This document shows positions 5,234-19,800 of a DNA stretch of 64,000 nucleotides, piece after piece; the first letter of the stretch is position 1, and each line of letters starts with the position of its first letter. Under the pieces are notes generated by a model, which was not told the DNA's origin, did not search any database, and saw nothing but the letters and a program-made list of their open reading frames with translations. This DNA is from Cryobacterium melibiosiphilum (lineage in GTDB: Bacteria > Actinomycetota > Actinomycetes > Actinomycetales > Microbacteriaceae). The stretch spans positions 124,001 through 188,000 of the forward strand of contig NZ_QZVS01000096.1 in NCBI RefSeq assembly GCF_003602235.1, in the 5' to 3' direction. Made by a program: the position numbers and the translations under genes.

Positions 5234-5443
5234 CAGTGACTCCCGATGGGACGGTTTTCGTCAATAGCGTGGGGCGCAAATCCGCGTGAAACTGGCGTCA
5301 TTGCGGGGCACAAGGGGGCGCCGAGGGGAGCGCCCGGGGCTTGTCGGAGCCATGTTATCCGGCCTCGGTAACTGGATGGCCTCAACTGGTGATAATCTAG
5401 ACAGGTTGCCAAAACTGGCGGCTGCTTCGCACGGTGAAGCGTC

Positions 5444-5515
<72 letters not shown>

Positions 5516-5548
5516 CAGGCTTGCAGCACTAAGCTGCTGACAGGTCGT

Positions 5549-5622
5549 GGCGGGGTAGCTCAGTTGGTTAGAGCACACGGCTCATAATCGTGGTGTCGCG
5601 GGTTCAATTCCCGCTCCCGCTA
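5549..5622 (+). tRNA. tRNA-Met (CAT), elongator type
   Basis: Acceptor GGCGGGG pairs with TCCCGCT with G-U at both ends. Anticodon loop CTCATAA has anticodon CAT; the anticodon stem CACGG/TCGTG lacks the three G-C pairs of initiator tRNA, so this is the elongator or a CAT-Ile candidate. T-stem is GCGGG/CCCGC, discriminator A5622. It lies 33 nt after tRNA-Thr, probably in one transcript. Confidence 0.93.
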
Positions 5623-5639
5623 CACAGTTCTCAGAGAAA

Positions 5640-5676
5640 TACCCCGGACTTCTGCGAAGGTCCGGGGTATTTTTTT
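5640..5676 (+). terminator. Rho-independent terminator after tRNA-Met
   Basis: Perfect 10-bp stem TACCCCGGAC (5640-5649) and GTCCGGGGTA (5660-5669) with a 10-nt loop, followed by seven T. It sits 18 nt after the tRNA-Met 3' end. Confidence 0.92.
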
Positions 5677-5734
5677 ACCCAGCGGGGGCCGCGGCCGGCT
5701 CCACGTTCAGCGTGTCGGGCGGCCAGCCCGTGTT

Positions 5735-6196
5735 CTAGGCGACAGGCGAGAACCAGTACTGTCCGAGCCATTCCAGAAATTCTTCCGCCTGCCGGTTGGC
5801 GTGTGCAAGCTGGACCTTGCCGGTGCTTCCGTCGAAAATATCGTCATATCCGGCCAATTGGTCCAGCGCCATACTCGAGAGCGGTCGAAAGCCCATCGTC
5901 CACCCGGGAAACTGGCGCGACGTGATCTTCTCCTCACTCACCGTGTGGATGCTGCGGTGCCGCGGGTCTGCGCGGATCACGGCGAATCGATCGCGAACTT
6001 CGTCATCGGGGCCCTCGAGGATTTGTATGAATTTGCCCTCGTGATAGATGAGGGCGCCGGTGAGGTGATGCTCGTCGTTGTTCGCCCGTGCCTGCACGAG
6101 GATCGCGGCGATGTCTTCGTCCGACAGGGGGACCGCCGAAGCGCTCACATAGGCAATTGATAGCAGGGTGTCCTCCGGACGTGAAATATGTTTCAT
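5735..6196 (-). CDS. BLUF-domain blue-light photoreceptor
   Basis: 153 residues from ATG 6196, chosen over an upstream ATG because GAGGAGGAAC precedes it. The whole protein is one BLUF domain. Counting residues, Tyr16, Asn40, Gln58, Trp99 and Met101 have the same spacing as AppA Tyr21, Asn45, Gln63, Trp104 and Met106, so the FAD hydrogen-bond switch looks intact. BLUF proteins bind FAD and change conformation in blue light. No EAL, GGDEF or cyclase output is fused, so it must signal by protein contact like PixD-type short BLUFs. It is divergent from a DUF1206 membrane protein across 122 bp. A photolyase and carotenoid-type genes elsewhere in the window fit an organism that meets light, but nothing ties them directly. 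Confidence 0.93.
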   Translation of the reverse strand: MKHISRPEDTLLSIAYVSASAVPLSDEDIAAILVQARANNDEHHLTGALIYHEGKFIQILEGPDDEVRDRFAVIRADPRHRSIHTVSEEKITSRQFPGWTMGFRPLSSMALDQLAGYDDIFDGSTGKVQLAHANRQAEEFLEWLGQYWFSPVA

Positions 6197-6318
6197 GTTC
6201 CTCCTCGGCGAAGCGACCGAACAGACCCCAACCGAGGGGCGCGGAGTACCCGCGACACGGGCAGCTATCGTTGAGAAGAGAAATTCGTGGTGTGGTGACA
6301 AGTAGGAGGCGACCCGGT

Positions 6319-7119
6319 GTGACCTCCACCACCGATCGCGCCTCGATGCGCACGCGCACCTTTCGCCGCCTGGCCCGTTCCGGCTACGCGGTCAACGGTC
6401 TGATTCACTTTCTGATCGGCACCATCGCCCTCACGGTCGCTTTCGGCGGCACGCCCGCCGCGGGCGCCGATCAGTCCGGCGCCCTGCGGGAAGTGGCAGG
6501 GTCACCGGGCGGCGGCCTCCTGATCTGGGCGGCCGTCGTGGGGCTGGGGGCGCTCGGTCTCTGGCAGGTGACCCAGGCCGGGCTGATCGTCGACCCGAAT
6601 CCCCTCAAGAAGTGGGGCCGCCGCGCGTCAGAGGCCGGTAAGGGTATCGCTTACCTGGCGCTCGGGTTCACGGCCATGGCGGTTGCGCTCGGCGGCCGCA
6701 CGAGCTCGTCCGAGTCGATCCAGGCCGTGAGCGCCTGGCTCCTGGAGAGCGACCTCGGTGTCCTGCTGCTCATCGCGATCGGCCTGACCGTGTTCGGCGG
6801 CGGCATCGGCTTCATCGTCATTGGGCTGCGCCGGGGATTCCGCAAATTCATCCGCGTGCCGGGCGGCCGCCGCGGCCTCTTCGTTCTGCGGCTCGGCCGG
6901 TCGGGCTATATCGTGAAGGGGTTGTCTCTTGGCATCATTGGATCCCTCCTCGTGGTCGCCGCGCTCACCAGCGATGCCGCCCAGGCGGGTGGCCTCGATG
7001 GAGCCCTCCGTACCCTCGGGCAGCTTCCGCACGGGGCCATCTACCTGACGATCGTCGGGCTGGGCCTGGCGCAGTATGGCCTGTTCCTGATGATCCGGGT
7101 GCGGCTGGCCCGCTTCTGA
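6319..7119 (+). CDS. DUF1206 integral membrane protein
   Basis: 266 residues. GTG 6319 is preceded by AGGAGG at 6304-6309 with good spacing. The protein has three internal repeats of about 75 residues, each opening with a Gly-Tyr motif (RSGYAVNGLIH near 21, KGIAYLALG near 108, RSGYIVKGL near 193), each giving two membrane helices, six in all. This is the DUF1206 pattern, whose biochemical function I do not know. It is divergent from the BLUF gene, sharing the 6197-6318 promoter region. Its stop lies 3 bp before a structured repeat that also forms the end of the facing gene. Confidence 0.85.
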   Translation: MTSTTDRASMRTRTFRRLARSGYAVNGLIHFLIGTIALTVAFGGTPAAGADQSGALREVAGSPGGGLLIWAAVVGLGALGLWQVTQAGLIVDPNPLKKWGRRASEAGKGIAYLALGFTAMAVALGGRTSSSESIQAVSAWLLESDLGVLLLIAIGLTVFGGGIGFIVIGLRRGFRKFIRVPGGRRGLFVLRLGRSGYIVKGLSLGIIGSLLVVAALTSDAAQAGGLDGALRTLGQLPHGAIYLTIVGLGLAQYGLFLMIRVRLARF

Positions 7120-7209
7120 GCCGTGACGAAAACCGGAGGAGACCGTGAAAAAGTCCCCATTCATCCGGTTTTCGATGAGAACTGCTCAGTTCATCCGGTT
7201 TTCGTCACT
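7116..7209 (-). repeat. 93-bp triad element A (two direct, one inverted unit)
   Basis: Read on the minus strand: unit CGAAAACCGGATGAA at 7204-7190 and again at 7174-7160, exactly 30 bp apart, then the inverted copy at 7123-7137. The outer arms GTGACGAAAACCGGA (7123-7137) and TCCGGTTTTCGTCAC (7194-7208) pair over 15 bp without mismatch. The first unit supplies the last codons and the stop codon of the LLM/FAD gene. The geometry matches the elements near 10.7 and 16.9 kb although the stem sequence differs. No T-tract. Confidence 0.8.
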
Positions 7210-9434
7210 CCGTCGAGCTGGCCGAGGTTGATGTTGTCGCGGAAGACGTTGTGCGGGTCGACCCGGCTCTTGACCGCCTGCAAGCGCTCGAGCGTTGCCG
7301 GGGGGAAAGTGAGCCTTAGCCGCCGGGCGTCGAGCTGGGTTTCGAAGCTCAGGTACGCGCCGACCGCGTGCCGTTCGAGCGGCGCCCAGGCCGAGTCGAG
7401 GGCCGCGTTGTTCGAGCCGAGGGCCACGACGGCGAAGTTGGCGCTGCGGCCGGCGTAGGCCGTCGCATCCGCTGCCACGTCACTGACCGCCCCGCCGACG
7501 GAGCGCACGCTGAGCACCCCAGCCGTCCCGGATTCGAGCAGCGCGGCAATGTTTTGCCCGACCTCCGCGGTGAAGTGGTCGATCAGGATCGACCGGCCCG
7601 CCGGTTGGCCCTGGCCGCGGTGAGGGTCGGTTGAGGCCATCATGGCGTCGGTGTAGCGCTGCAGGCGCACGTCCTGCCCGATCAGCGGGGCGATGTCGGC
7701 GAGCGGCTGCAGCGCCGAGAGGATCTCGCCCTCGTCGTCGGAGTCGACGAGCGCCATGACGAGGGCCTGGGAGGGGGAGCCGCGGCGCGACGAGCCCATC
7801 ATGATGTTGGCGGTGAGACTGCGCGGGGCCGCCTCGACGGCGCGCCCGAAGCGCTCGAAGAAACCGGCGACATCCGTCGCGTCGAAGGTCAGCTGCGCGA
7901 ACGCGACCAGGCCGACCGGGTCGGCGATGATCTCGAAGGCCGTCGCGATGCCGAGGGCAGAGCCCGCGCCGCGCATGGCCCAGAACAGCTCCGGGTCATG
8001 GTCGGCGTCGACCCGCACGACCTCGCCGTCGGCCAGCATCAGTTCGACGGCTTCGATATGGTCGATCGTCAGGCCGTTCTGGCGGGCGAGCCAGCCAATG
8101 CCGCCGGCCGTCGCCAGACCGCCGACGCCGACTCCGCCGTAGTCGCCGCTCGAGACCGCCCAGCCGTAGGGGGCCAGCGCGGTCGCGACATCAGACCAGC
8201 TGGCCCCCGGTCCGATACGCACCAGTCGCCGTTCTTCGTCGATCACCTCGATCGAGTCAAGGTGCCGCAGGTCGATGACGATGCCGCCGTCGTTGGTGCT
8301 GCGGCCGCTGATCCCATGGCCGCGGCTGCGCAGGGCGAGCACGGCATCCGGATGCTTCCGGGCAAATTCCAGGGCCTCGGCTACCTCAGCGACGCTGGTC
8401 GGCTGCAGCACCACGGCGGGGGAGCCGCCGCGCAGATAGGTGGAGCGCACGTCGCGGTAGCCGGCGTCGCCGGGTTCGATCGCGGCCAGGTTCGCCGGAA
8501 TGTCGTCGTAGGAGATTCCCGGGCGGCGGTGCGCGAGTGTCGCGGTGCTGCGTGCCGCGGGGCTGGCGGGGCTCGTGCCGCCGCGCTCGGCCGTGACGAG
8601 TTCGCGCACCGCGGGGGCGACGTTCTCGATGAAGCCCTGCAGCGTGCGCGGGTCGTCGCTCGCGAGAATGAACAGGCTGACCTGTTCAGTGAGCACCAGG
8701 CCCGACAGCTCCTCCGCCCAGTCCGCCGGATCGCGGCCGGGAACCGGCATGACGTTCAGCAGTCGGCGCACCTCGCTCGGGTCGCGGCCGGCGCCGACCG
8801 CGGCATCGTCGATGATCTTGTTCGCCTCGGTGAGCGTGGGGTCGCGCAGGTACGGCTGGCTGGGCAGCCAGCCGTCGGCCAGTCTCCCGGTGAGCGCGAG
8901 CATTTTCGGCTTGAGGGCGCCGACGATGATCGGAATCGGATGCTCCGGCGCCGGACCTCGTTGGGCCCCGGCCACGCGGTGGTACCGGCCGTCGACGGTC
9001 ACGCCGCCGGGGGCATCCGTCTGCCAGATGCCGCGGATGATGGTGATGGCCTCCTCGAGCGCGGTGATGCCCTGCCCCGGGGTCAGCCGGGCGCCGCCCA
9101 TCGACGCGATCGCGTCCCAGAACGCCCCGGCACCGAGGCCGAGATCGAAGCGGCCGTTCGAGAGCAGGTCGAGGCTGGCCGCGGCGCGCGCCACGACGGC
9201 CGGCGGGCGCAGCGGCAGGTTCAGCACGTTCGGCGCGATGCGGATGCGTTCGGTTTTCGCGGCGACGTAGGACATCAGCGTCCAGGTGTCGAGAAACGAC
9301 GCCTGGTACGGATGATCCTGAAACGTCACCAGGTCGTAGCCGAGGCGCTCCACCAGGGTCGACAGTTCGACGACGGCTCCGGGCTGAGCGGCCGTCGGCG
9401 TGAGGAAAGCACCGAACTCGAGGGGGTGGTTCAT
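7191..9434 (-). CDS. Fused LLM flavin oxidoreductase and FAD-linked oxidase
   Basis: 747 residues; ATG 9434 shares one base with the stop of the upstream azoreductase (TGATG). Residues 1-275 are a luciferase-like monooxygenase barrel (MNHPLEFGAF, FDLGLGAG near 97-103, ALEEAITIIRGIW near 125-137, PIIVGALKPKMLALTGRLADGWLP near 168-191), which uses FMN or F420. Residues 330-747 are an FAD_binding_4/BBE oxidase of the 6-hydroxynicotine/berberine-bridge type: RSRGHGISG holds His373, the usual site of covalent FAD. The second cysteine of bicovalent members is absent (GGIGWLARQNG). VDPHNVFRDN near the end is the BBE terminus. Two flavin enzymes in one chain suggests consecutive redox steps on one compound; substrate unknown. 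Likely controlled by the HxlR regulator with the azoreductase. Confidence 0.87.
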   Translation of the reverse strand: MNHPLEFGAFLTPTAAQPGAVVELSTLVERLGYDLVTFQDHPYQASFLDTWTLMSYVAAKTERIRIAPNVLNLPLRPPAVVARAAASLDLLSNGRFDLGLGAGAFWDAIASMGGARLTPGQGITALEEAITIIRGIWQTDAPGGVTVDGRYHRVAGAQRGPAPEHPIPIIVGALKPKMLALTGRLADGWLPSQPYLRDPTLTEANKIIDDAAVGAGRDPSEVRRLLNVMPVPGRDPADWAEELSGLVLTEQVSLFILASDDPRTLQGFIENVAPAVRELVTAERGGTSPASPAARSTATLAHRRPGISYDDIPANLAAIEPGDAGYRDVRSTYLRGGSPAVVLQPTSVAEVAEALEFARKHPDAVLALRSRGHGISGRSTNDGGIVIDLRHLDSIEVIDEERRLVRIGPGASWSDVATALAPYGWAVSSGDYGGVGVGGLATAGGIGWLARQNGLTIDHIEAVELMLADGEVVRVDADHDPELFWAMRGAGSALGIATAFEIIADPVGLVAFAQLTFDATDVAGFFERFGRAVEAAPRSLTANIMMGSSRRGSPSQALVMALVDSDDEGEILSALQPLADIAPLIGQDVRLQRYTDAMMASTDPHRGQGQPAGRSILIDHFTAEVGQNIAALLESGTAGVLSVRSVGGAVSDVAADATAYAGRSANFAVVALGSNNAALDSAWAPLERHAVGAYLSFETQLDARRLRLTFPPATLERLQAVKSRVDPHNVFRDNINLGQLDGVTKTG

Positions 9435-10099
9435 CAGGCAGCCGCGAGGCGGGCGGCACGTCGGGCGGCCAGGCTCTGGCCGTGGCGCACGGCCTGGGCC
9501 TCGGCGAGGGTCTTGAGCTCGTTGGCGATCTCGGTGAACTGGTCGAGGGCTGGGTTCACGCCGACGAGGGTGAACTCGCGGGTGACGACCTCGAGGTCGA
9601 GCTGCCAGACGTCTTCGAGGATGCGGCGCATCCAACCGGTGGCGTGGTCCCAGCCCTCGCGGGGTGTGCCGGCGGAGTAGTTGCCGCCCTGCACGGTGAC
9701 CAGCACGGCCGGCTGGCCCGCCGTTGCGGGAGTCGTTCCCGAGGCCATACGCGGGTCGGTCAGCACGAGGTCGACGTAGGTCTTGAAGTGCTGCGAGACG
9801 CCGAAGTTGTAGAGCGGAACGGCGAACAGCAACGCGTCGGCATCCGCTAACTCATCGGTCAGTGTGCTGGCCAGGGCCGTTGCGGCCTGCTGCTCGGGCG
9901 TGCGCTCGGCCGCCGGGGTCATCGACGCGGAGACGGCGTTCGACCAGGAGGTGGCGGGGATCGGGTCGGTACCCACGTGGCGGCGCACGGTCGAGGTGAG
10001 CGGATGCTCGGCACGCCACTCGGCTTCGACGAGGTCGCCCAGGGCGCGACTCGACGAGCCTTCGGTGCGCATGCTGGCGTCTAAACGGAACAGGGACAT
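9434..10099 (-). CDS. FMN-dependent NADH-azoreductase/quinone reductase
   Basis: 221 residues with GAGGAGAG before the ATG. Flavodoxin_2 fold: opening MSLFRLDASMRTEGSSSRAL is the FMN phosphate loop, PLYNFGVSQHFKTYVDLVL (about 99-117) matches the AzoR FMN motif P-x-YNF, and VQGGNYSAG the second FMN loop. AzoR-type enzymes reduce azo dyes and quinones by two-electron transfer from NAD(P)H, protecting against thiol and quinone stress. It is the first gene of a two-gene leftward operon with the LLM/FAD fusion and is divergent from an HxlR regulator, a common pairing for quinone- or electrophile-responsive reductases. Confidence 0.9.
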   Translation of the reverse strand: MSLFRLDASMRTEGSSSRALGDLVEAEWRAEHPLTSTVRRHVGTDPIPATSWSNAVSASMTPAAERTPEQQAATALASTLTDELADADALLFAVPLYNFGVSQHFKTYVDLVLTDPRMASGTTPATAGQPAVLVTVQGGNYSAGTPREGWDHATGWMRRILEDVWQLDLEVVTREFTLVGVNPALDQFTEIANELKTLAEAQAVRHGQSLAARRAARLAAA

Positions 10100-10139
10100 G
10101 ACTCTCCTCGGTACTCGCCGGACCGTCGACCCGGGCTTT

Positions 10140-10156
10140 AGTTACCATCAGTAACT
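10140..10156. promoter_or_regulatory. Operator palindrome 1, azoR/hxlR gap
   Basis: AGTTAC-CATCA-GTAACT is a perfect 6-bp inverted repeat 40 bp upstream of the azoreductase start. A second GTTACC palindrome lies 50 bp away in the same divergent gap. The pair is a good candidate binding site for the adjacent HxlR regulator. Confidence 0.6.
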
Positions 10157-10205
10157 CTGAAGATAACTCTGTACGATGAGAGCCTGTAACCGCAAACGAT
10201 GCCCT

Positions 10206-10221
10206 GTTACCCCACGGTAAC
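10206..10221. promoter_or_regulatory. Operator palindrome 2, azoR/hxlR gap
   Basis: GTTACC-CCAC-GGTAAC, a perfect 6-bp inverted repeat sharing the GTTAC core with the site at 10140-10156. It ends 14 bp before the HxlR start codon, so occupancy would block hxlR transcription or translation (autorepression). Confidence 0.6.
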
Positions 10222-10235
10222 CGATGGAGGCCCGC

Positions 10236-10661
10236 ATGGATCAGGACGCCCGTTTCGAGGCGCTGCAGGACCGTCTGAGCGCATCACACCCGACCATGAG
10301 CCAGCTCTGCACGAGCGATTCTCCCGACCTGTTCCGGTCGCTGCTGTCGCGTATCGGCGACAAATGGACCCTGATCGTGATCGGGGTGCTGGGGGAGGAG
10401 CGCAAGCGCTTCACCGAGCTGGTCGACTTCATCCCGGGCATTTCCCGGCGGATGCTGACGGTCACCCTCCGAGCGCTCGAGCGCGACGGGCTGGTGTCGC
10501 GAACCGTCTATGCCGAGGTTCCGCCTCGTGTGGAGTACGAGGTCACCCCGCTCGGCCGTTCGCTGCAGGCGGTGGCCCTCACCCTCGGTGACTGGGTCAG
10601 TGAGCACCAGCACACGATCGCGCACCATCGCCGGGAGTTCGACGCGGCCACCGCGCCCTGA
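10236..10661 (+). CDS. HxlR-family winged-helix regulator
   Basis: 141 residues; ATG 10236 chosen over ATG 10224 because GGAGG (10226-10230) precedes it at the right distance. HxlR signature: Cys near the N-terminus (LCTSDSPDLFRSLLSRIGDKWTL), then a winged helix with RFTELVDFIPGISRRMLTVTLRALERDGLVSR and the wing RVEYEVTPLGRSL. Members with a Cys just before the KW motif (QorR, HypR, YodB types) sense quinones, hypochlorite or diamide by thiol chemistry. Divergent orientation from an AzoR-type reductase supports that reading. Probable autoregulation through the GTTAC palindromes. Confidence 0.9.
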   Translation: MDQDARFEALQDRLSASHPTMSQLCTSDSPDLFRSLLSRIGDKWTLIVIGVLGEERKRFTELVDFIPGISRRMLTVTLRALERDGLVSRTVYAEVPPRVEYEVTPLGRSLQAVALTLGDWVSEHQHTIAHHRREFDAATAP

Positions 10662-10666
10662 GCGGC

Positions 10667-10755
10667 GTGCCGGCGGGAGGATGAATTGCCGAGGTGTCGT
10701 CGCCGGGAGGATGAATCGGCCGGTTTTGCCGATCGCATCCTCCTTTCGCGGCGGG
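10667..10755 (+). repeat. 93-bp triad element B (two direct, one inverted unit)
   Basis: GGGAGGATGAAT at 10675-10686 and 10705-10716 (30 bp apart), then the inverted CATCCTCC at 10736-10743 within ATCCTCCTTTCGC. Aligns without gaps to the element near 16.9 kb, sharing much sequence, and to the one near 7.1 kb in geometry. It fills the gap between the convergent hxlR and Cys-rich microprotein genes and abuts the latter's stop codon. Confidence 0.8.
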
Positions 10756-10923
10756 CTAGCGGCCGAAGAGGCGCGACAGGAACGAGCCGGACGACACGGG
10801 CGCCGGGTGGTTTCCGGGGCAGCGCTCGTTGCGCGGCACGTTGCGCATGACCTGGTCGACGTGCTGGCCGCAGCCGGCCCAGGTGGTCTTCTGGCAGGTC
10901 TTGCAGGTGACGGCTCTACACAT
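10756..10923 (-). CDS. Cys-rich microprotein (CxxC, GCGQHVD), copy 1
   Basis: 55 residues, ATG 10923 preceded by GAAAGG. Sequence begins MCRAVTCKTCQKTTWAGCGQHVDQVM and has a second Cys cluster in NERCPGNHP. The TWxGCGQHVDxVM core and the spaced cysteines suggest a zinc- or iron-binding knuckle. I know this as a small conserved family without an assigned function. It lies directly downstream of thioredoxin (52-bp gap, same strand). A second copy, 42 residues, sits at 14506 next to the other palindromic operators, so both ends of this cluster carry one. Confidence 0.8.
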   Translation of the reverse strand: MCRAVTCKTCQKTTWAGCGQHVDQVMRNVPRNERCPGNHPAPVSSGSFLSRLFGR

Positions 10924-10975
10924 GGGGATTGCCTTTCGGTGACGCGGTTGGTGGAGGGTGGCGAATAGAGAGGGG

Positions 10976-11335
10976 TCAGGACTGCGCGGCGACCTTGGCG
11001 CGCACATCGTCCATGTCGAGGGCCTGCACACCCGTGACGAGCTCCTCGAGGGTCGCGGCATTCAGCGCGCCGGGTTGGGAGAACACCAACACCCCGTCGC
11101 GGAAGGCCATCAGGGTTGGAATCGAGCGGATGCCCGCGGCCGACGACAGCCCCTGCTCGGCTTCGGTGTCGACCTTGCCGAACACCACATCGGGGTGTTT
11201 GTCGGAGGCGGCGCTGAACGTGGGTGCGAAGGAGCGGCACGGGCCGCACCAGGCGGCCCAGAAGTCGACGAGCACGATGCCGCCGGCGTTGACGGCCGCG
11301 CTGAAAGTGGTTTCGGTGAGATCAGTGGTTGCCAT
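10976..11335 (-). CDS. Thioredoxin
   Basis: 119 residues, ATG 11335. Classic thioredoxin fold with VLVDFWAAWCGPCRSF: redox pair Cys30 and Cys33, cis-proline loop at GIRSIPTLMAF. It reduces protein disulfides, here possibly persulfides, using thioredoxin reductase elsewhere. The leader is only about 4-5 nt, and the promoter spacer is filled by a long palindrome, so expression is probably induced by the ligand of a CsoR/CstR-type repressor. Downstream is the Cys-rich microprotein, upstream on the same strand the MFS transporter and SQR-like oxidoreductase. Confidence 0.94.
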   Translation of the reverse strand: MATTDLTETTFSAAVNAGGIVLVDFWAAWCGPCRSFAPTFSAASDKHPDVVFGKVDTEAEQGLSSAAGIRSIPTLMAFRDGVLVFSQPGALNAATLEELVTGVQALDMDDVRAKVAAQS

Positions 11336-11340
11336 AGGGG

Positions 11341-11371
11341 AACTGTATACCCCTTGGGGTATACAGTTCAA
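11341..11371 (-). promoter_or_regulatory. Thioredoxin promoter with CsoR/CstR-like operator
   Basis: Arms AACTGTATACCCC (11341-11353) and GGGGTATACAGTT (11356-11368) form a perfect 13-bp inverted repeat around TT. On the minus strand TTGAAC (11371-11366) and TATACA (11349-11344) are 16 bp apart, so the operator fills the promoter spacer. ATACCCC..GGGGTAT is the kind of site bound by CsoR-family repressors (copper) and their persulfide-sensing relatives (CstR). Confidence 0.75.
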
Positions 11372-11387
11372 GTTCCGAGGGTGATTC

Positions 11388-12650
11388 TCAGATACCCCGG
11401 TGGGTACTCTTCTGCACGAGTCCCCAGGTGACCACGATGGCGACGAGAACGAGGGCGGCAGCCCCCAGGCCCGAGTACCCCAGGAGCACGAGGATCGGCC
11501 CGGCAACCGCGCCGCCGAGCGCGCCGGCGGCGTTCATGGAGAGGTCGGAGAAGCCCTGCAGTGATGAGCGGTCCTCGATGTCGACGGCCTCCGAGATGAG
11601 CGCCGAGCCGGCGACGACGGATGCCGACCAGCCGAGTCCCAGCAGGATCAGGCTCACCGTCAGAACCGGCTGGGAGCCGTCGCCGAGCCACGCGGTGAGC
11701 AGCGCGGCGAGGAGCATCCCCTGGCCCAGCAGAATGGTCGGCAGGCGACCGAAGCGGTCCGAGAGCCAGCCGAAGACGGGGGAGAGGGCGTACATGCCGG
11801 CCACGTGCAGGCTGATCGTCAGCCCCACAATGGTCAGGCTGGCGCCATGGTCGCGCAGGTGCACCGGTGCCATCGACATCAGGGCGACCATCGTCATGTG
11901 GCTGAGCGCGACGGTGACGACGGCGAAACGGGCCAGCCCATTGGCGCGCAGAATCGTGAGGCCGCCGTGGGCGCGCCGGGCGCCGACCTGGCCCGCGCGG
12001 GCGGCGAGGGCGGTGAGCAGCGGGTCCGGCCGCAGCCCGAAGGAATAGACGAAGGCCGCGGCGACCGTGGCCGCGAGGGAGAAGGCGAAGGCGCCGGTCA
12101 TGGCGGGCAGCCCCAGGGCGGCGCCGAGCGCCTCGCCGGGGCCGAACAGGTTGGGCCCGAGCACCGCCCCGATCGTGGTCGACCAGACGACGAGCGAGAG
12201 GTCCCGGGCACGAAACCGCGTGCTGGCCAGATCGGTCGCGGCGAAGCGGGCCTGCAGGTTCGTGGCCGATCCGGCGCCGAGCAGCATCAGGGCCAGCAGT
12301 AACAGCGGGAAGACGCCGATCGCCGCCGCGACGATCGCCAGCACCGCGCCGGCGCCGGCGATGAGCGACCCGGAGGCCAGCGAGATGCGCCGGCCCCGGC
12401 GCTGCGCGAGACGGGCCAGCGGAACGGCCACGACGGCCGCCCCGAGGGTGCTCATGGTCGCCGCCATGCCCGACCAGGCGCTCGACCCCGAGAGCTCGGC
12501 AGCGAGCAGCGCCCCGAGCGACAGGGTCGCGCCCATGCCGATGCCGCCGAGGATCTGCCCGGCGACGAGCACTCGCACGACCCGCTTTTGCAGGGTGGAG
12601 TGCGCGTCGGCGGGCCGGGCGCGGGCGACGGATGCGGCATCCGTCGTCAT
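11388..12650 (-). CDS. Major facilitator superfamily exporter, 12 TM
   Basis: 420 residues with about twelve hydrophobic segments. MFS signatures: RLAQRRGRR between helices 2 and 3 and the equivalent FGWLSDRFGRLPT between 8 and 9. Start ATG 12650 follows GAGGCC. Drug:H+ antiporter-like; cargo not readable. It belongs to the leftward cluster SQR-like, 47-residue protein, MFS, thioredoxin, microprotein, which suggests export of a sulfur compound, metal complex or reactive small molecule, but this is inference from context only. Confidence 0.85.
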   Translation of the reverse strand: MTTDAASVARARPADAHSTLQKRVVRVLVAGQILGGIGMGATLSLGALLAAELSGSSAWSGMAATMSTLGAAVVAVPLARLAQRRGRRISLASGSLIAGAGAVLAIVAAAIGVFPLLLLALMLLGAGSATNLQARFAATDLASTRFRARDLSLVVWSTTIGAVLGPNLFGPGEALGAALGLPAMTGAFAFSLAATVAAAFVYSFGLRPDPLLTALAARAGQVGARRAHGGLTILRANGLARFAVVTVALSHMTMVALMSMAPVHLRDHGASLTIVGLTISLHVAGMYALSPVFGWLSDRFGRLPTILLGQGMLLAALLTAWLGDGSQPVLTVSLILLGLGWSASVVAGSALISEAVDIEDRSSLQGFSDLSMNAAGALGGAVAGPILVLLGYSGLGAAALVLVAIVVTWGLVQKSTHRGI

Positions 12651-12706
12651 CGTCGGCCTCGGGTCGAGCAGGACAAGCGATCGGCGATCATGTGTCTCCA
12701 GTGGTG

Positions 12707-12850
12707 CTAGTGGCTGCTCTTGGCCAGCCGGTACATGGTGAAGTTGAGCATCAGAAAGCGCAGCAGTTGCACTCCGAGATTACTGCGCCGGGCGAGTTCG
12801 GCGGCGCCCGGAAGTGGGGCTCGGTCGATGCGGTCCTGGGTGGTGGTCAT
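12707..12850 (-). CDS. 47-residue protein with hydrophobic C-terminus
   Basis: ATG 12850 with GGAGAA upstream; a longer frame to 12895 would overlap the SQR stop. The first 25 residues are polar (MTTTQDRIDRAPLPG), the rest is one hydrophobic stretch LLRFLMLNFTMYRLAKSSH with a basic end. It may be a small membrane-associated subunit. Position between the SQR-like gene (41-bp gap) and the MFS gene supports co-expression. No function assigned. Confidence 0.6.
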   Translation of the reverse strand: MTTTQDRIDRAPLPGAAELARRSNLGVQLLRFLMLNFTMYRLAKSSH

Positions 12851-12891
12851 CGTGTTCTCCGTCGGTAGAAGGGGTGGGGTGGGGCGTGCGG

Positions 12892-14355
12892 TCATTCCGG
12901 GATCAGGTACCAGAACGGATAGGCCTTGGCCTTGTAGAGGAACATCGTGTGCAGCACCCGTTTGACCCAGTGCGCGGCCAGGCCGATCTCACCGGTCGTG
13001 GTGCGCGGGTCGCGTCCGTTGGTGTCGGGGTACCGGGCGTTGTCCGGCACGATCGGCGACATCGACATCGCCGCGGCGGTGCCCCGGCGCAGGCCGGTTC
13101 CGGTGGATGCGATGCAGGCGGCGGCCATTTCGCCCATCGACGCGTGGTGGGTCGGGGCGAGGGCGCCCTTCAGGATCATGTCGGCGATCGTCATCGCGAC
13201 AACCTTGCCCATCGCGCCCGAGGGCATGCCGGTGCGCGGCGGGGCGGGCGCGACGGCGAGGCCGCCGGGCGTGGCGTAGGGGCGGGAGATGGCGTGCGGC
13301 GGCGCGAAGGCGATTCCGACGCCGAACATGTTGGCGTAGGTCGGGTTCTGGTAGGTTTTCGGCCAGTCCTCGGCGGTCCACTCGTCGAACGGCTTGGCCG
13401 TGTAGTCGGCGTCGACGCGCATGAAGCCGCTCGGCGCGAAGATCGTGTCGGTGATCTCGGCACCGGTGCGGTCGAAGGCTTTCAGGCCCACCCCGCGGAA
13501 CGGCGGCAGCAGCATGGCGAAGTCGAATTTCTGGGTGTTCTCGGTGCCGTCGATCTGCGTGTAGTTGATGACGCCGGGATCAATCCGGGTCACCGCGGCC
13601 TGGGTGATGGCCTTCATTCGGCGCTCGCGAAAGAGCGATTCCATCCAGGCCTCGCTCGTCACGCGGGCACCTCCGGAGTTGAAGGTCATGCCGCCGACGC
13701 CGAAGTCGCCGAGCTCGTGCTCGTTGGTGAGGTAGATGACCTCGGCCTTGTCGCGCACGCCGGCGCCCTGCAGCTCCTGCTCCACGTTGAAGGCGTATTC
13801 GAAGGCGGCGCCCTCACAGGTGCAGGTGCCGTGGCCGACACCCACCACGAGGGTCTGCGGGATTCCCGCTTTCAGGGTCGTGATGACCTCGGCCAGGCGC
13901 TTCGCCGCGCCGACGGCGTGGCTCGGCGTGCAGACCGAGACAGTGTTGCCTGCGTCCGGCCCGAGGCCGGGTGTCGCGGCGAAGTTCAGCTGGGGCCCGG
14001 TCGCGTTGATCAGGTAGTCGTAGCCGAGGCGTTCGGTCGTGCCAACCCGGGTGGGGTCGGTGTAGACGATCTCGACCTGCCCGCGCGGGTTGTGGGCGTC
14101 GCCGTCGGGGTAGAGGGCCACGGCCTTGGCCTGGTGAAACTCGATTCTCTTGCGGCGATAGATGGGGGCGAGGGGAAACACCACCTTGTCGGCGCCCATC
14201 TTGCCGACTCCGACCCAGATGTTCGAGGGAATCCAATTCCACTTCGAGCCCGGGGAGACCACGATCACCTCGTGATCCCGGCCCAAACGCTTCTTCAAGT
14301 ACAGGGCCGCGGTGTGGCCGGATACCCCTGCTCCCAATACGACGACACGTGCCAT
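12892..14355 (-). CDS. SQR-like FAD/NAD(P)-dependent oxidoreductase
   Basis: 487 residues. N-terminal FAD-binding Rossmann motif VVVLGAGVSGHTAALYLKK; SPGSKWNWIPSNIWVGVG follows as in sulfide:quinone oxidoreductases. Cysteines at 142 (VSVCTPSHA), 178 and 180 (GHGTCTCEGAAFEY) and 414 (AAACIAST) sit where SQR and its relatives keep redox-active Cys; CEGAAFE resembles the SQR x-EG-x-A-x-E motif. The C-terminal end has aromatic and hydrophobic residues (VLHTMFLYKAKAYPFWYLIP) that could bind the membrane and quinone. SQR oxidises sulfide to polysulfide or persulfide and reduces quinone. First gene of the leftward cluster, with two ATACC palindromes upstream. Confidence 0.82.
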   Translation of the reverse strand: MARVVVLGAGVSGHTAALYLKKRLGRDHEVIVVSPGSKWNWIPSNIWVGVGKMGADKVVFPLAPIYRRKRIEFHQAKAVALYPDGDAHNPRGQVEIVYTDPTRVGTTERLGYDYLINATGPQLNFAATPGLGPDAGNTVSVCTPSHAVGAAKRLAEVITTLKAGIPQTLVVGVGHGTCTCEGAAFEYAFNVEQELQGAGVRDKAEVIYLTNEHELGDFGVGGMTFNSGGARVTSEAWMESLFRERRMKAITQAAVTRIDPGVINYTQIDGTENTQKFDFAMLLPPFRGVGLKAFDRTGAEITDTIFAPSGFMRVDADYTAKPFDEWTAEDWPKTYQNPTYANMFGVGIAFAPPHAISRPYATPGGLAVAPAPPRTGMPSGAMGKVVAMTIADMILKGALAPTHHASMGEMAAACIASTGTGLRRGTAAAMSMSPIVPDNARYPDTNGRDPRTTTGEIGLAAHWVKRVLHTMFLYKAKAYPFWYLIPE

Positions 14356-14418
14356 GTCAACCTCTTATCTTGTGCGGCTGCGACCGTGCAGCTGCGCTTC
14401 TGAGGCGACCCTACTCCT

Positions 14419-14434
14419 ATACCCAATGGGGTAT
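14419..14434. promoter_or_regulatory. CsoR/CstR-like operator 2
   Basis: ATACCC-AATG-GGGTAT, an exact 6-bp inverted repeat, 64 bp upstream of the SQR-like start. Same core as the thioredoxin promoter site. On the minus strand its right arm runs into TATAGG, a possible -10 for the SQR-like gene. Confidence 0.65.
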
Positions 14435-14461
14435 CTACCACGACGGATGCCGTTTTCTGCT

Positions 14462-14477
14462 ATACCTCATAGGGTAT
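14462..14477. promoter_or_regulatory. CsoR/CstR-like operator 3
   Basis: ATACC-TCATAG-GGTAT, the same palindrome with a single mismatch when six-base arms are compared. It overlaps TATTCA, a possible -10, and lies 29 bp upstream of the rightward Cys-rich microprotein. With the 14419 site it gives each divergent promoter its own operator. Confidence 0.6.
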
Positions 14478-14505
14478 TCATTTCCCGACATGAACAGGAG
14501 TCACA

Positions 14506-14634
14506 ATGTGTAGTCCAATTCGGTGCAGCAAGTGCGCAAAGGTCACCTGGGTTGGCTGCGGCCAGCACGTCGACGAGGTCATGGCGGACTTCGCACTCAG
14601 CCAGCAGTGCACCTGCGTCGAGCCCGGACGGTAG
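14506..14634 (+). CDS. Cys-rich microprotein (CxxC, GCGQHVD), copy 2
   Basis: 42 residues, a gene easily missed by length cut-offs. AGGAG at 14496-14500 is five bases before ATG 14506. MCSPIRCSKCAKVTWVGCGQHVDEVM matches copy 1 (10756-10923) at C2, C7, C10, K12, TW, GCGQHVD and VM; the tail has QCTC instead of ERCPGNH. It is divergent from the SQR-like gene and carries its own ATACC operator, so both paralogues flank one probable regulon. Metal or persulfide binding is the simplest guess from the cysteines. Confidence 0.82.
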   Translation: MCSPIRCSKCAKVTWVGCGQHVDEVMADFALSQQCTCVEPGR

Positions 14635-14761
14635 CTGGTTCAGGGGCGTGCGGGACGCCGTGGAGTCCTGCGGGACTCGCATTTCCTGGAGTTTGTCAGT
14701 ATGTTAGAACAATAGTCATCCGGCATCGGTGGCTACCGACTGACATCACCGAGGAGATTCC

Positions 14762-15166
14762 GTGCCACTGGTTCGTATCGACGTCAACGTGGGCCGCAGC
14801 CCCGAACAGCTCGGCGGCATCAGCGCCGCCATTCACGGCGCGATCCTCGCCGTCTACGGCATTCCCGAGCGTGATCTGTTCCACATCCTCACCGAGCATC
14901 CCCTGGGCCAGTTGCGCGCGCAGGACGCCGGTCTCGGCTTCGAGCGCACCGACGGCGTTGTCATGATTCAGATCTTCACCCAGGGCGGGCGTGACCAAGC
15001 GGCCAAGAGCGCCCTCTTCGACCGCATCTCGAGCGAACTGGCCGCGGTCAGCGTCGACGGAGCGGATGTCTTCATCGGCTACGTCGAGAACGGCCCCGGC
15101 GACTGGTCCTTCGGCTTCGGCCGTGCCCAGTACGTCACCGGGGAAATCGCGGTCCCCGCCTCCTGA
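14762..15166 (+). CDS. Tautomerase-superfamily protein
   Basis: 134 residues from GTG 14762 with GAGGAG at 14751-14756. Begins MPLVRIDV: after Met removal Pro becomes the N-terminal catalytic base of 4-oxalocrotonate tautomerase-type enzymes. Length fits the fused (about 130-residue) tautomerases built from two beta-alpha-beta units. GDWSFGFGRAQYVTG near the end resembles the conserved end of this group. Substrate unknown. It lies after the microprotein on the same strand (127-bp gap) but has no palindromic operator of its own. Confidence 0.82.
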   Translation: MPLVRIDVNVGRSPEQLGGISAAIHGAILAVYGIPERDLFHILTEHPLGQLRAQDAGLGFERTDGVVMIQIFTQGGRDQAAKSALFDRISSELAAVSVDGADVFIGYVENGPGDWSFGFGRAQYVTGEIAVPAS

Positions 15167-15180
15167 CCTCGCCTCTCGAC

Positions 15181-15340
15181 GCGCCCGTTCTTGCCGGGGT
15201 CCAGCGAGCGCACTCCCGTCCCGCTGGTTGAGCCGCGCCCGTTCTTGCCGGGGTCGAGCGAGCGCACTCCCGTCCCGCTGGTTGAGCCGCGCCCGTTCTT
15301 GGCGCGGTCGAAACCAAGTGAGCCGACCTCCGGATCGCGG
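15181..15340. repeat. 54-bp tandem repeat inside GGTTGAGC/GGTCGAAACC element
   Basis: A 54-bp unit beginning GCGCCCGTTCTTGCCGGGGT runs at 15181-15234 and 15235-15288 with one mismatch seen, and a third partial copy starts at 15289. Each unit ends CCGCTGGTTGAGCC. The tail GGTCGAAACCAAGTGAGCCGA (15307 on) matches the interspersed repeats at 34.9 and 40.3 kb. Fills the gap between the convergent tautomerase and SGNH genes. Confidence 0.85.
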
Positions 15341-15348
15341 GAGGGCCG

Positions 15349-16176
15349 TTAGTGCTCGTGCACCGGCAGCAGCTCGGGCCGCTTGGCCGTGCGGCCGTCG
15401 CCGCTCGAACGTCCGGTCAGTCGGCGGCCGATCCAGGGCAGCACGTGGGTGCGATAGTAGTGTTCGCCCTGCACGCGCGCCGCGACCGGGGCAGCGGATG
15501 TGTCGGCGCCGGCGCCCGAAGAAATCGCCGGGTCCCAGTCGGCGGGAACGGGCACGTCGAGTGCCCGCAGTACGTTCTCGGCGACGCGGGTGTGGCCGCG
15601 GGCATTCAGGTGCAGCCGGTCGGACGACCAGTACTCGGGCTTGGCCAGGGTGATGTCTCGCCAGTTGTCGACGAAGGTGACGCCGGGGCCCGTGAACGTG
15701 GCGCGGCAGGCATCCGCCAGGCGATCGCCGCGGCGCTGGATCAGCGCGCCCATCGGCAGGTGCCGGGTGGGGTCTCCGCCGGTCAGCATCAGAACGTGGG
15801 CACCCTGCGCGGTGGCACGCTGCACGACCGTGTCGAGCAGGGCCACGATCGCGGCGTTCTCGACCCGCGGGCGCATGACGTCGTTTCCGCCGCCGCAGAT
15901 CGACAGCAGCGTGGGCGCAAGGGCGAGCGCCGGCTCGAGCTGCTGCGACACGATCGGGCCGAGCAGCTTGCCGCGGATGGCGAGGTTCGCGTAGCGCACG
16001 CCGGGCGCGGCATCCGCGGCGCCCGCATCCGCTCTCGCGGAGGGGATGGCGGCCGCGAGGGCGAGGGCGACGAGGTCGGCCCAGCCGCGCTGGGTGCCGT
16101 CGGGGAGGTCGTCGCCGACGCCCTCGGTGAAGCTGTCGCCGAGGGCGACGTATCTGTCAAACCTGCCGTCCTGCAT
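15349..16176 (-). CDS. SGNH/GDSL-family hydrolase
   Basis: 275 residues. Block I VALGDSFTEGVGDD has the catalytic Ser15; GGGNDV holds the block III Asn; SSDRLHLNARGH holds the catalytic Asp186 and His189 (block V). No signal peptide, so cytoplasmic. The N-terminal half resembles the lysophospholipase/esterase branch found throughout actinobacteria. Natural ester substrate is unknown. Follows the HEAT-repeat gene on the same strand with a 37-bp gap. Confidence 0.88.
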   Translation of the reverse strand: MQDGRFDRYVALGDSFTEGVGDDLPDGTQRGWADLVALALAAAIPSARADAGAADAAPGVRYANLAIRGKLLGPIVSQQLEPALALAPTLLSICGGGNDVMRPRVENAAIVALLDTVVQRATAQGAHVLMLTGGDPTRHLPMGALIQRRGDRLADACRATFTGPGVTFVDNWRDITLAKPEYWSSDRLHLNARGHTRVAENVLRALDVPVPADWDPAISSGAGADTSAAPVAARVQGEHYYRTHVLPWIGRRLTGRSSGDGRTAKRPELLPVHEH

Positions 16177-16213
16177 CCGTTCCCCTGACGATTGCGTGCG
16201 CGGTTGTTCCGAG

Positions 16214-16768
16214 CTATTCCTTCGGCAGGCCGAGGCGCTTCGCGATGGCGTCGCGGGCCTGCTGGGCCGCGCGGCGCACCTCTTTGTCGGGGTCGCGCAG
16301 GCGCACGGCGATGGTGTCGAAGTTCTCGGGCGTGCCCTGGGCGGCGAGTGCGTGCAGCGCCGCAGCGCGCACGCGCGGGGTCTCGTCGGTGGTCAGGCGC
16401 ACGAGCTTGGGCACGGTCTGCAGATCGCGCAGCAGCACGACCTTGGCGCACATCTCGCGCACGCGCCAGGACTCGTTGTTCAGGCCGACCACGATGTAGG
16501 GCGCGGCGGCTTCGCTCCAGATGTGCAGGAATGCGCGGGCGCCCCACAGCTCGGGCCAGTACAGCGCGGGCGCGCCATCGAGAATGCCGAGGGCGTGGCG
16601 TCCGCCGGCGTACATGAGAAAGTCCTTGCCGGCGTTCTTGCCGCGCAGCAGGGCGATGGAGTTGTCGACGACGACGGTCTCGCCGTAGTGCGCGACGGCG
16701 GCGTGCAGGCGCTCAGCCGTGGGCAGGTCGATCGGAAGGTCGGGGTGCGGAGTCAGTTTGTTATGCAT
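16214..16768 (-). CDS. HEAT-repeat protein
   Basis: 184 residues. The C-terminal half (about 85-180) has three helical HEAT/PBS-type repeats (ESWRVREMCAKVVLL, TPRVRAAALHALAAQG, DKEVRRAAQQARDAIAKR). The N-terminal half has no recognisable fold but conserved-looking LYWPELWGARAFLHIW. HEAT repeats usually bind other proteins; partner unknown. Start ATG 16768 has no strong ribosome binding site. Upstream of the SGNH hydrolase on the same strand. Confidence 0.72.
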   Translation of the reverse strand: MHNKLTPHPDLPIDLPTAERLHAAVAHYGETVVVDNSIALLRGKNAGKDFLMYAGGRHALGILDGAPALYWPELWGARAFLHIWSEAAAPYIVVGLNNESWRVREMCAKVVLLRDLQTVPKLVRLTTDETPRVRAAALHALAAQGTPENFDTIAVRLRDPDKEVRRAAQQARDAIAKRLGLPKE

Positions 16769-16833
16769 AGCAGTACCAAACTACCGCGCGGGCCTGTGAA
16801 GCCCGCTGTTCAGGCGATAACTCGCGGCCTGCG

Positions 16834-16922
16834 GTAGCGAAAGGAGGACGATTTGACCCGATGTCGGCACCGGGAGGACGATTTGGGCCTCTGCGAGGGC
16901 ACGATCCTCCTTTCGCGACGGG
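16834..16922 (+). repeat. 93-bp triad element C (two direct, one inverted unit)
   Basis: GGAGGACGATTTG at 16843-16855 and 16873-16885, exactly 30 bp apart, then the inverted copy at 16905-16916. The outer arms GCGAAAGGAGGA (16837-16848) and TCCTCCTTTCGC (16905-16916) pair perfectly over 12 bp. Highly similar to element B (shared GGGAGGAxGA.TT and ATCCTCCTTTCGCG). It lies just beyond the stop of the leftward GNAT gene, upstream of the HEAT gene. Confidence 0.8.
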
Positions 16923-17399
16923 TCAGACGGCGAGGGGGCGCGCGGCGGGCGCGAGCTCGAGTTCGAAGCCGAAGGCGCTGTCGTAGATGCCGTAGTTTCC
17001 GATGTCGGCATAGCCGAGGCCGCGGTACAGGGCCAGGGCCTCGGGCTGGGCGTAGCCGGTTTCGAGGCGTACCCGCAGGTAGCCGAGCTCGACCGCGATC
17101 GCTTCGAGGGCGTGCAGCACCGTGCTGGCGTGGCCCTGGCGGCGGAAATCGGGGTTGGTCCACATGCGCTTGACCTCGGCGGTTCCGGGCGCATAACAGC
17201 GGATGCCGCCCCCGGCCACCGAGATCCCCTCGTGCACCAGCACCACGAAGGCCCCGACGGGAGGGTCGAACTCTTCGGCGGCGACGTCATAGGCCGAGTC
17301 GCCGGAGCCGTCGCCATAGCGGGCGTCGTACTCTCGGTGCAGGTCGGCGAGCAGGGGGACAACTTCGGGGTCGCTCAGACGAACGCGTACGATTTTCAC
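16923..17399 (-). CDS. GNAT-family N-acetyltransferase
   Basis: 158 residues, a single GNAT domain. Acetyl-CoA pyrophosphate loop at RRQGHASTVLHALE (about 92-105), preceded by the strand AEVKRMWTNPDF, and the family's final GLGYADIGNYG. It transfers acetyl from acetyl-CoA to an amine, target unknown. Monocistronic by appearance. It is divergent from the hadA-like gene with an 81-bp gap that carries a likely leaderless promoter for the latter. Confidence 0.88.
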   Translation of the reverse strand: MKIVRVRLSDPEVVPLLADLHREYDARYGDGSGDSAYDVAAEEFDPPVGAFVVLVHEGISVAGGGIRCYAPGTAEVKRMWTNPDFRRQGHASTVLHALEAIAVELGYLRVRLETGYAQPEALALYRGLGYADIGNYGIYDSAFGFELELAPAARPLAV

Positions 17400-17468
17400 T
17401 CGGGATAGTCTGCCGTATGCGGCTGGGAGAACGGTGGTGGGGCATCCGTCACCGTCGCAGTCACCGCG

Positions 17469-17474
17469 TAAACT
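17469..17474 (+). promoter_or_regulatory. -10 box for a leaderless hadA-like transcript
   Basis: TAAACT ends six bases before GTG 17481, which itself has no upstream Shine-Dalgarno sequence. That distance places the transcription start at or next to the start codon, the usual layout of leaderless actinobacterial genes. Confidence 0.55.
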
Positions 17475-17480
17475 GGCGCG

Positions 17481-17927
17481 GTGTCAGTAAACCCCGAACT
17501 TCAGGGGCGGGTCTTCCCGCCGGTGCCGCCGTATCTCGTGGGCCGGGAGAAGGTGCGCGAGTTCTCGCGGGCCGTCTTCGCGACCAACCCGATCAACTTC
17601 GATGCGGATGCCGCCCGCGCGGCCGGCCACGCCGACGTCGTGGCCCCGCCGACCTTCGCCGTCGTGGTGCAGGAGGCGACCCTCGCGCAGCTGCTCGCCG
17701 AACCCGACGCCGGCATCGACTTCACCCGGGTGGTGCACGGCGACCAGCGTTTCACCTACAGCCGCCCCATCGTCGCTGGCGACGAGCTCACCGCGACCCT
17801 GTCAGTGTCGAGCATCAAGACCCTCGGCGGCCACGCCATGGTCACCGCCGAGTCCCGCGTGGTCGATGCGACCGGCGCGCACGTCGTGACCGCGATATCC
17901 ACTCTTGTTGTTCGGGGAGACGAATGA
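17481..17927 (+). CDS. MaoC-type dehydratase, N-terminal (HadA-like) subunit
   Basis: 148 residues. YLVGREKVREFSRAVFATNPINFDADAARAAGHADVVAPPTFA is the opening of the FAS1-DH/MaoC N-terminal hot-dog domain, as in mycobacterial HadA. Together with the next gene it probably forms a heterodimeric (R)-3-hydroxyacyl-ACP/CoA dehydratase, this subunit shaping the acyl channel. The next start overlaps its stop (ATGA). In many actinobacteria the same pair precedes murB, as here. Real substrate in a family lacking mycolic acids is unclear. Confidence 0.85.
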   Translation: MSVNPELQGRVFPPVPPYLVGREKVREFSRAVFATNPINFDADAARAAGHADVVAPPTFAVVVQEATLAQLLAEPDAGIDFTRVVHGDQRFTYSRPIVAGDELTATLSVSSIKTLGGHAMVTAESRVVDATGAHVVTAISTLVVRGDE

Positions 17928-18385
17928 GCCAGACCGTGACGACCCCGAACTTGTCCACGCTGACCGTCGGCGAGGTCGTCGCCAGCCGGGAATTCGCGCT
18001 GACCCGGGATTCCCTCGTTCGCTACGCAGGGGCATCCGGTGACTTCAACCCGATCCACTACCGCGACGAGGTCGCCGTGTCAGTCGGCCTGCCCGGTGTG
18101 CTCGCCCACGGCATGCTGACCATGGGGCTGGCGGTGCAGCCGGTCGTCGACTGGGCCGGCGACCCCGCCCGTGTTGTGGACTACCAGGTGCGTTTCACCC
18201 GCCCCGTGCTCGTCGACGGCGTGACCGGCGCACTCGTCACCGTCACCGCGAAGGTCGGCGCTCTCAACGCCGAGGCGCAGATCGTGCGGATCGACCTCAC
18301 GGTCACCTTCAACGAGCAGACCGTCCTCGGCAAGGCGCAGGCCCGTGTGAGCCTGGCTGTGGCCCCCGTCAGCGTGGTGGCGTAG
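17924..18385 (+). CDS. MaoC-type dehydratase, catalytic (HadB-like) subunit
   Basis: 153 residues, ATG overlapping the preceding stop by four bases. Hot-dog hydratase with YAGASGDFNPIHYRDEVA (about 40-57), which carries the catalytic Asp and His of the hydratase 2 motif, and GVLAHGMLTMGL (about 66-77). Partner of the HadA-like subunit. Adds or removes water across 3-hydroxyacyl/enoyl thioesters. Four bases separate it from murB, so the three genes form one operon. Confidence 0.88.
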   Translation: MSQTVTTPNLSTLTVGEVVASREFALTRDSLVRYAGASGDFNPIHYRDEVAVSVGLPGVLAHGMLTMGLAVQPVVDWAGDPARVVDYQVRFTRPVLVDGVTGALVTVTAKVGALNAEAQIVRIDLTVTFNEQTVLGKAQARVSLAVAPVSVVA

Positions 18386-18389
18386 CCCG

Positions 18390-19550: not shown

Positions 19551-19574
19551 CTCCGGAGGCGGCGATGGGGCGAT

Positions 19575-19604: not shown

Positions 19605-19609
19605 AGTGG

Positions 19610-19649: not shown

Positions 19650-19684
19650 CCGGGCCGTTCGCGGCCGTGCCGCCTGCCAGACGC

Positions 19685-19786: not shown

Positions 19787-19800
19787 CGAGGTAGGACCAA

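Follow-up and report, generated by a model that had tools for sequence, protein, structure and literature searches.

REP sequences and REPINs are the closest described counterparts of the repeats reported here. In the sections of two reports that deal with these systems (PMC3733652, PMC8049555), the gene of the associated enzyme, RAYT, is flanked by its own repeats, and one genome may hold several repeat families, each with its own enzyme. CGTC-tagged REPs, dispersed palindromes with stems of 8–9 bp and loops of 4–5 nt from Proteobacteria and four other phyla, are reported in PMC3733652 to have no dedicated transposase; neither 'actinobacteria' nor 'Microbacterium' occurs in the main text of that paper. 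On the enzyme side, PF18741 (MTES_1575 Vsr-like nuclease) was named from a Microbacterium protein that the relevant passage of PMC3710099 describes with a Vsr-type nuclease domain.

In this study, we analysed a 64,000-nucleotide stretch of the Cryobacterium melibiosiphilum genome (hereafter the window). A sequence-only reading had pointed out three look-alike elements in it, here termed E7, E10 and E16, and had proposed an RNA switch, a bidirectional 3'-end structure or a non-autonomous mobile element as their identity. Our analysis indicates that they are probably non-autonomous, REP-like dispersed extragenic palindromes that are served in trans by a cognate DUF559/PF18741 (Vsr-like) nuclease.

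The elements resemble the REP/REPIN–RAYT systems in being short palindromic extragenic repeats present in tens of copies, in the flanking of the enzyme gene by the same repeats, and in the presence of several families per genome, each with its own enzyme. However, the partner is a Vsr-like nuclease, an enzyme unrelated to RAYT; the GTAG foot is missing and the A1/A2 consensus arms are of the CGAAAxxxGGA type over about 90 bp; and the unit is 2+1 (2+2 or 1+1 in other families) over about 80–105 bp, as against a hairpin of 20–40 bp. A search for the Y1 (HUH) transposase PF01797 gave no match in 12 genomes while matching 5 of 14 control genomes, and a RAYT/Y1 transposase was rejected as partner, being absent from all 12. 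Because the Y1 enzyme is absent and the repeat anatomy differs, the elements are not members of the REP/RAYT group, although they would work alike. The CGTC-tagged REPs are likewise dispersed palindromes, and CGTC also occurs in some of our elements, at positions outside the arm, but no nuclease partner is described for them in the corresponding part of PMC3733652. MITEs of DDE insertion sequences share the terminal inverted arms, the length of about 80–105 bp, the non-autonomous nature and the dispersal; our elements appear to differ in that their arms match the brackets of PF18741 nuclease genes. Vsr-like/EDxHD homing endonucleases and DUF559 proteins belong to the same nuclease domain family, but the genes read here stand free between other genes. 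We know of no dispersed repeat family for Vsr-like, EDxHD or DUF559 enzymes, and no description of dispersed palindromes paired with DUF559/PF18741 nucleases was found in the open-licence PMC literature.

Results

Anatomy and covariation of the three elements

E7, E10 and E16 follow one plan, in which one inverted arm precedes two direct complementary arms within about 93 bp in total, with the direct arms at a period of 30 bp and an outer offset of 67 bp (Table 1). The canonical orientation used here, inverted arm first, lies on the strand opposite to that of the sequence-only reading. The surrounding genes were called using a codon-usage script trained on the window. Two covariance models were used: R1 was built from 15 copies after a pattern search, and R2 from 30 diverse training rows, which included E7 and two nuclease-bracketing copies (L071 and L105) and excluded E10 and E16. 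The units and spacing originally described were found in place, and R2 recovered all three elements. The statement that they belong to no named family agrees with a search of window positions 5000–20000, in which no Rfam family matched at E7, E10 or E16 up to E = 5.

Table 1. Palindromic elements of the window, with their arms and gene settings
Element	Position	Strand	R2 E-value	Arms	Setting
E7 (inverted arm first)	7120-7212	+	1.2e-18	CGAAAACCGGA 7127-7137; TCCGGTTTTCG 7164-7174 and 7194-7204	Convergent genes with 3' ends at 7119 and 7191; overlap of about 20 bp with the 3' end of the second
E10 (canonical on - strand)	10663-10755	-	3.9e-12	10738-10748 (CGAAAGGAGGA on -); 10701-10711; 10671-10681	Convergent genes with ends at 10661 and 10756
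E16 (canonical on - strand)	16830-16922	-	4e-17	16905-16915; 16868-16878; 16838-16848	Follows the 3' end of a GNAT gene (- strand, stop 16923) and precedes the start of a HEAT-repeat gene (- strand, start 16768)
Fourth palindrome, from a different family	53003-53089	.		CCATTCGACGGAG at 53007; complement at 53073	Convergent genes 51867-52943 and 53098-53769

The sequence-only reading had seen identical geometry with exchanged stems and preserved pairing, and this was borne out across 30 diverse elements: both-side changes occurred in 12 of the 17 outer pairs. The outer pairing held 52 both-side cells, compared with 18.1 in shuffled data and 6–19 when the partner was slid, and the inner pairing held 43, compared with 18.5 in shuffled data. 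Both-side changes affected 8 of the 13 inner pairs, a number that was not above shuffles, since 115 of 500 reached it. The covariation of the elements is real.

A dispersed family in Cryobacterium and other Microbacteriaceae

A covariance-model search for further copies, proposed along with the original observation, yielded them in the own genome and in relatives. R1 detected 32 element places in the own genome after removal of opposite-strand duplicates, among them two identical copies on different contigs (L054 and L055), and scored in 9 of 40 related genomes (own included), all of one genus. The plan thus recurs much more often than chance would allow. Across these copies the 30-bp period was found with diverse stems; the geometry was constant and the arm sequence varied by species. 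Among named genomes, the exact spaced pattern was found in C. frigoriphilum, C. tagatosivorans and C. tepidiphilum as well as in Agromyces cavernae. C. frigoriphilum held 29 distinct element places, 25 of which were read. In A. cavernae, exact CGAAAACAGGA occurred 52 times, as against 0 for a reversed-pattern control; the outer arms lay 67 or 68 bp apart in all 23 element places, and the middle arm was recognisable (at most 2 mismatches) in 20 of them. Of 249 Microbacteriaceae genomes searched with R2 under strict filters, 20 gave matches, and these covered 12 of 85 genera (own included), with further stems that included AACAGCA, AATTGAGGA and AATGCAGGA.

The exact pattern was present in 17 stretches of genome contigs (5 Cryobacterium, 6 Agromyces and 6 others) and had no match among viral contigs, where a phage origin was sought. 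Three of the stretches from other genomes (L148, L153 and L157) were judged by eye to be chance matches, and L151, L156 and L158 to be unrelated palindromes, which we take to be of the GTCATTCCCG type.

The number of arms also varied. In some genera a fourth arm gives a 2+2 version with two forward and two reverse arms (L241, L260), and since some relatives carry this version, GAAAAC in the Cryobacterium loops may, by eye, be a decayed fourth arm. Short forms without one 30-bp unit were observed at L059, L073, L085, L094 and L111; the site of L059 is occupied in C. frigoriphilum by a full-length element, L195, a difference that loss between the direct arms would produce. A. cavernae carries a 3+1 element, in which one more direct arm follows after 34 bp, and also an element with a tandem duplication of 156 bp (L168, L159). 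In several copies from this species (L161, L170 and others), the loop GACACGCCG and the sequence CGGCGTGTC next to the third arm are complementary by eye, so that the element contains a further inverted pair.

Nuclease genes bracketed by palindromes

In the own genome, the C61 gene (about 17390–18241), which encodes a DUF559/PF18741 nuclease domain and lies outside the window, is bracketed by two elements, and elements also stand beside its orthologue in G005 and G021. In a first set of 30 Cryobacterium nuclease loci, 13 had an R2 match at E ≤ 0.01, 6 of them on both sides of the gene, and the arms differed from gene to gene. We also used a stem-blind test, in which the same 11-mer was sought in the upstream and downstream intergenic spacers in either orientation. 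After one locus without a gene call was dropped, 23 of 29 Cryobacterium loci shared such a word across the nuclease flanks, compared with 4.49 on average and at most 10 in 1000 shuffles. A second, family-wide set of 30 nuclease loci, from which 3 were dropped, was largely independent of the earlier searches, apart from the previously encountered genes of G095 and G075. A 12-mer was shared in 11 of its 27 loci (shuffled mean 1.24, maximum 5 in 500 shuffles) and at 0 of 31 neighbouring genes, and no shared 12-mer was found in the other 16; with 11 bases, the corresponding counts were 13 of 27 (shuffled mean 3.04, maximum 7) and 2 of 31. A few of the words shared in each set are simple sequences or lie outside the arms.

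An R2 element adjoins a nuclease ORF in 4 of 28 loci, the four belonging to other genomes of three genera (G095, G075, G164 and G227). At 30 Cryobacterium lysS loci used as controls, R2 matches at E ≤ 0.001 were confined to the own genome (G000), G005, G021 and G001, whose lysS loci carry the nuclease gene or a truncated remnant of it; the next match elsewhere was in G040 (E = 0.21). The nuclease gene is paired with its own repeat, and the agreement between the arms of scattered elements and the nuclease brackets points to a repeat-plus-enzyme partnership.

Alignment of 22 of the nucleases gave PF18741 in all 22 (E ≤ 0.01) and DUF559 in 20, with PF18741 scores near the curated cut-off (38.8 against 38.2 in one member, 36.2 in another). 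E176, D203 and H220 (L112 numbering) were invariant in all 22. Many members have a putative AbiEi-like N-terminus, with the PADLOC AbiEi model matching in up to 14 of the 22 and Pfam AbiEi_4 in 8; NCBIfam gave one weak match, in a single member. The nearest solved chain by sequence was 3hrl, an endonuclease-like protein (E = 8.5e-8), followed below significance by 3r3p, a mobile-intron protein (E = 0.06). The domain layout is taken from sequence profiles, because the single-sequence AlphaFold model had a mean pLDDT of 38.6.

One nuclease, one repeat family

Three DUF559/PF18741 nucleases (C61, C66 and C68) are encoded in the own genome, each with its own palindrome family. The brackets of the C61 nuclease are 2+1 elements of the GGAGGA type. 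The C66 nuclease (G000:C66:5912-6793) is surrounded by palindromes with the same arms as the fourth element of Table 1, and the C68 nuclease by palindromes whose arms, GCATAACTCCTGCA, are likewise present at other places of the genome. The fourth element was first encountered as a weak R2 match and the C66 locus was then examined as a test; its arms (GTACCATTCGACGG) match those of the C66 family exactly. Further copies of this family are found in L007/L014, L024 and L319. At one family's nuclease, the arms of another gave only weak matches with two mismatches.

The same correspondence was observed in other genomes. The A. cavernae nuclease gene (L167 1723-2580) has a 2+1 element with CGAAAACAGGA on each side, and the same element stands at 21 other places. 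In G011 and G013, the single dispersed copies found by R1 (L065, L067) carry the arms of the resident nuclease brackets, with a few mismatches in G013. The AGCGGA and GCAGGA arm types of the own genome have no bracketed resident nuclease among the three, and their partner may be lost or unassembled.

Arm changes between species

Stem types were assigned from the first arm of full-length 93-base copies only. On this basis, ACAGGA accounted for 10 of 12 classified copies in G001, ACCGGA for 7 of 7 in G005 and GCAGGA for 12 of 19 in C. frigoriphilum; the own genome (n = 22) held 8 GGAGGA, 7 AGCGGA and 5 GCAGGA copies. When the stem type changes, all arms of an element change together.

For the own genome and C. 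frigoriphilum, 16 candidate element pairs were compared and 15 re-checked, and 12 were found at corresponding sites in the same orientation. The pair L110/L192 is uncertain, with a length difference of 1.1 kb. Three candidates were rejected as corresponding pairs: L039/L193 is in opposite orientation, L056/L189 lies on different sides of the same genes, and L037/L198 has only neighbouring overlap. Three of the corresponding sites showed a switch of the whole set of three arms between GGAGGA and GCAGGA or ACAGGA. These were L040/L186; L041/L188, which is E16 and its C. frigoriphilum counterpart, with a nearly identical flanking gene; and L053/L183, which adjoins a nuclease gene. Loop identities were 0.56, 0.71 and 0.65, ranking 95, 7 and 32 among 410, respectively, against a mean of 0.466 (sd 0.115) for non-corresponding loops in the set without the listed pairs. 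Of the three switched sites, E16 is the one at which a change of the arms in place is likely.

Occupancy and movement

The lysS locus was compared across 30 Cryobacterium genomes. Four contain the nuclease with elements or a remnant, 16 have a spacer of at most 66 bp, 5 carry a different palindrome at this place and the remaining 5 are other or unclear, a pattern that fits insertion of the nuclease and its brackets as a unit. In C. tepidiphilum (G001:C1:223046-223361; L140 1501-1815), the lysS nuclease matches only residues 4–87 with a short element at the break, and the dispersed ACAGGA elements of this genome persist. In five Cryobacterium genomes (L213, L214, L215, L220 and L224), a spacer of about 112 bp downstream of lysS holds another long inverted repeat (CTCGCGAAC..AAGCAC / GTGCTTAAG..GCTCGCG).

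At L056/L189 (L056 1470-1660; L189 330-460 and 1440-1640), the own genome and C. frigoriphilum are each without the other's element within about 1.2 kb, a difference that speaks for gain or loss; the element-free sites differ by more than the element, and the surrounding bases differ too. Comparison of the own genome with C. frigoriphilum and of the lysS loci caught neither a transposition event nor a target-site duplication, and no empty site was exact. For E7, no empty site was available in C. frigoriphilum, where the left neighbour has no orthologue and only a paralogue at 46%. Movement appears to be slow, since 12 element pairs have kept matching positions in these two genomes.

Placement of the elements and alternative explanations

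Among 80 Cryobacterium element rows, 37 were convergent, 28 tandem, 10 divergent (the identical pair L054/L055 counted twice) and 5 inside called genes; the 23 A. cavernae elements comprised 12 convergent, 11 tandem and 0 divergent. This convergent placement, which E7 and E10 share, together with the long hairpins that the arms could form, would suit bidirectional 3'-end structures or intrinsic terminators fixed by selection between convergent genes. However, a terminator family would be expected to show a stricter placement bias than this, and 10 of the 80 rows are divergent. Eight terminator-like sites were predicted in window positions 5000–20000 (shuffled mean 5.9), and because none falls at E7, E10 or E16, a 3'-end structure is not supported as their primary role, although many elements lie between convergent genes. 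A terminator would also have no need of a third arm or of species-wide arm identity, and the nuclease brackets would be left unexplained, so that this explanation is highly improbable. We give almost no credence to an RNA switch with two mutually exclusive hairpins, even though the inverted arm can pair with each of the two direct arms and covariation is seen in both pairings. In 71 Cryobacterium rows, which are related to one another, would-be G-U cells of the inner pairing numbered 23 on the canonical strand and 63 on the other, a count that leans to the strand of the sequence-only reading. The outer pairing was closer to even, at 29 and 41 in these related rows and at 20 and 17 in the 30 training rows, where the inner counts were 15 and 25. 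The elements stand in either orientation to tandem genes (17 vs. 11) and include the 10 divergent rows and the 5 inside called genes; E7, E10 and E16 have no Rfam match, and the DUF559 gene is the sole recurrent neighbour evident. Neither the switch nor, as primary role, the 3'-end structure offered by the sequence-only reading was supported.

The elements could instead be operator sites. The nuclease, with its AbiEi-like N-terminus, would then be a DNA-binding regulator that autoregulates through its brackets, the dispersed elements would form a regulon or chromosome-organising sites, and mobility would be needless. Members of the AbiEi antitoxin family bind inverted repeats and autoregulate, and AbiEi models match the N-terminus in part of the nuclease set; moreover, the strict 30-bp spacing suits protein binding on one DNA face, and 12 sites are kept between two species. 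Against this, divergent spaces make up about 40% of the intergenic length of the window (3165 of 7900 bases), and the far lower share of divergent elements (10 of 80 and 0 of 23) indicates that promoter regions are avoided. Elements also lie downstream of the nuclease gene, their distribution is patchy within the genus (9 of 40 genomes with R1), and the catalytic-type residues of the nuclease are kept. Operator sites are an unlikely explanation, although less remote than a terminator or a switch. The non-autonomous mobile element, the remaining option of the sequence-only reading, forms part of the preferred reading, in which the elements would be mobile; the cognate nuclease gene had no place in that earlier proposal.

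Discussion

We infer that the elements and the nuclease form a system of binding, cutting and mobility. The N-terminal domain of the nuclease would recognise the arms of about 11 bp, and the fixed spacings of 30 bp and 37 bp would place several nuclease molecules on one element. The nuclease may then cut or nick at or near the elements, and repair from another copy would spread and homogenise them and occasionally move them into intergenic sites; the element–nuclease–element cassette could be copied or moved likewise. Drift in the specificity of the nuclease would drag the repeat set along.

As a broader and more tentative proposal, which may well not hold, Microbacteriaceae, and possibly bacteria beyond them, could share a repeat system that acts across the genome, has a Vsr/EDxHD-type nuclease at its base and evolved independently as a counterpart of REP/RAYT. 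Each nuclease would have its own palindrome family, and cut-and-copy repair would keep tens of copies of it on each chromosome; as the nuclease's DNA recognition shifts, the copies would be rewritten in concert.

With these findings, orphan dispersed palindromes gain a partner and a testable code of one nuclease and one arm sequence. Should the pairing operate as proposed, REP-type repeats would have arisen alongside an enzyme whose fold is not related to that of RAYT, and the DUF559/PF18741 nucleases would gain a target. The parallel arm change between close species would then be a natural experiment, in which a DNA-recognising protein and dozens of its sites co-evolve.
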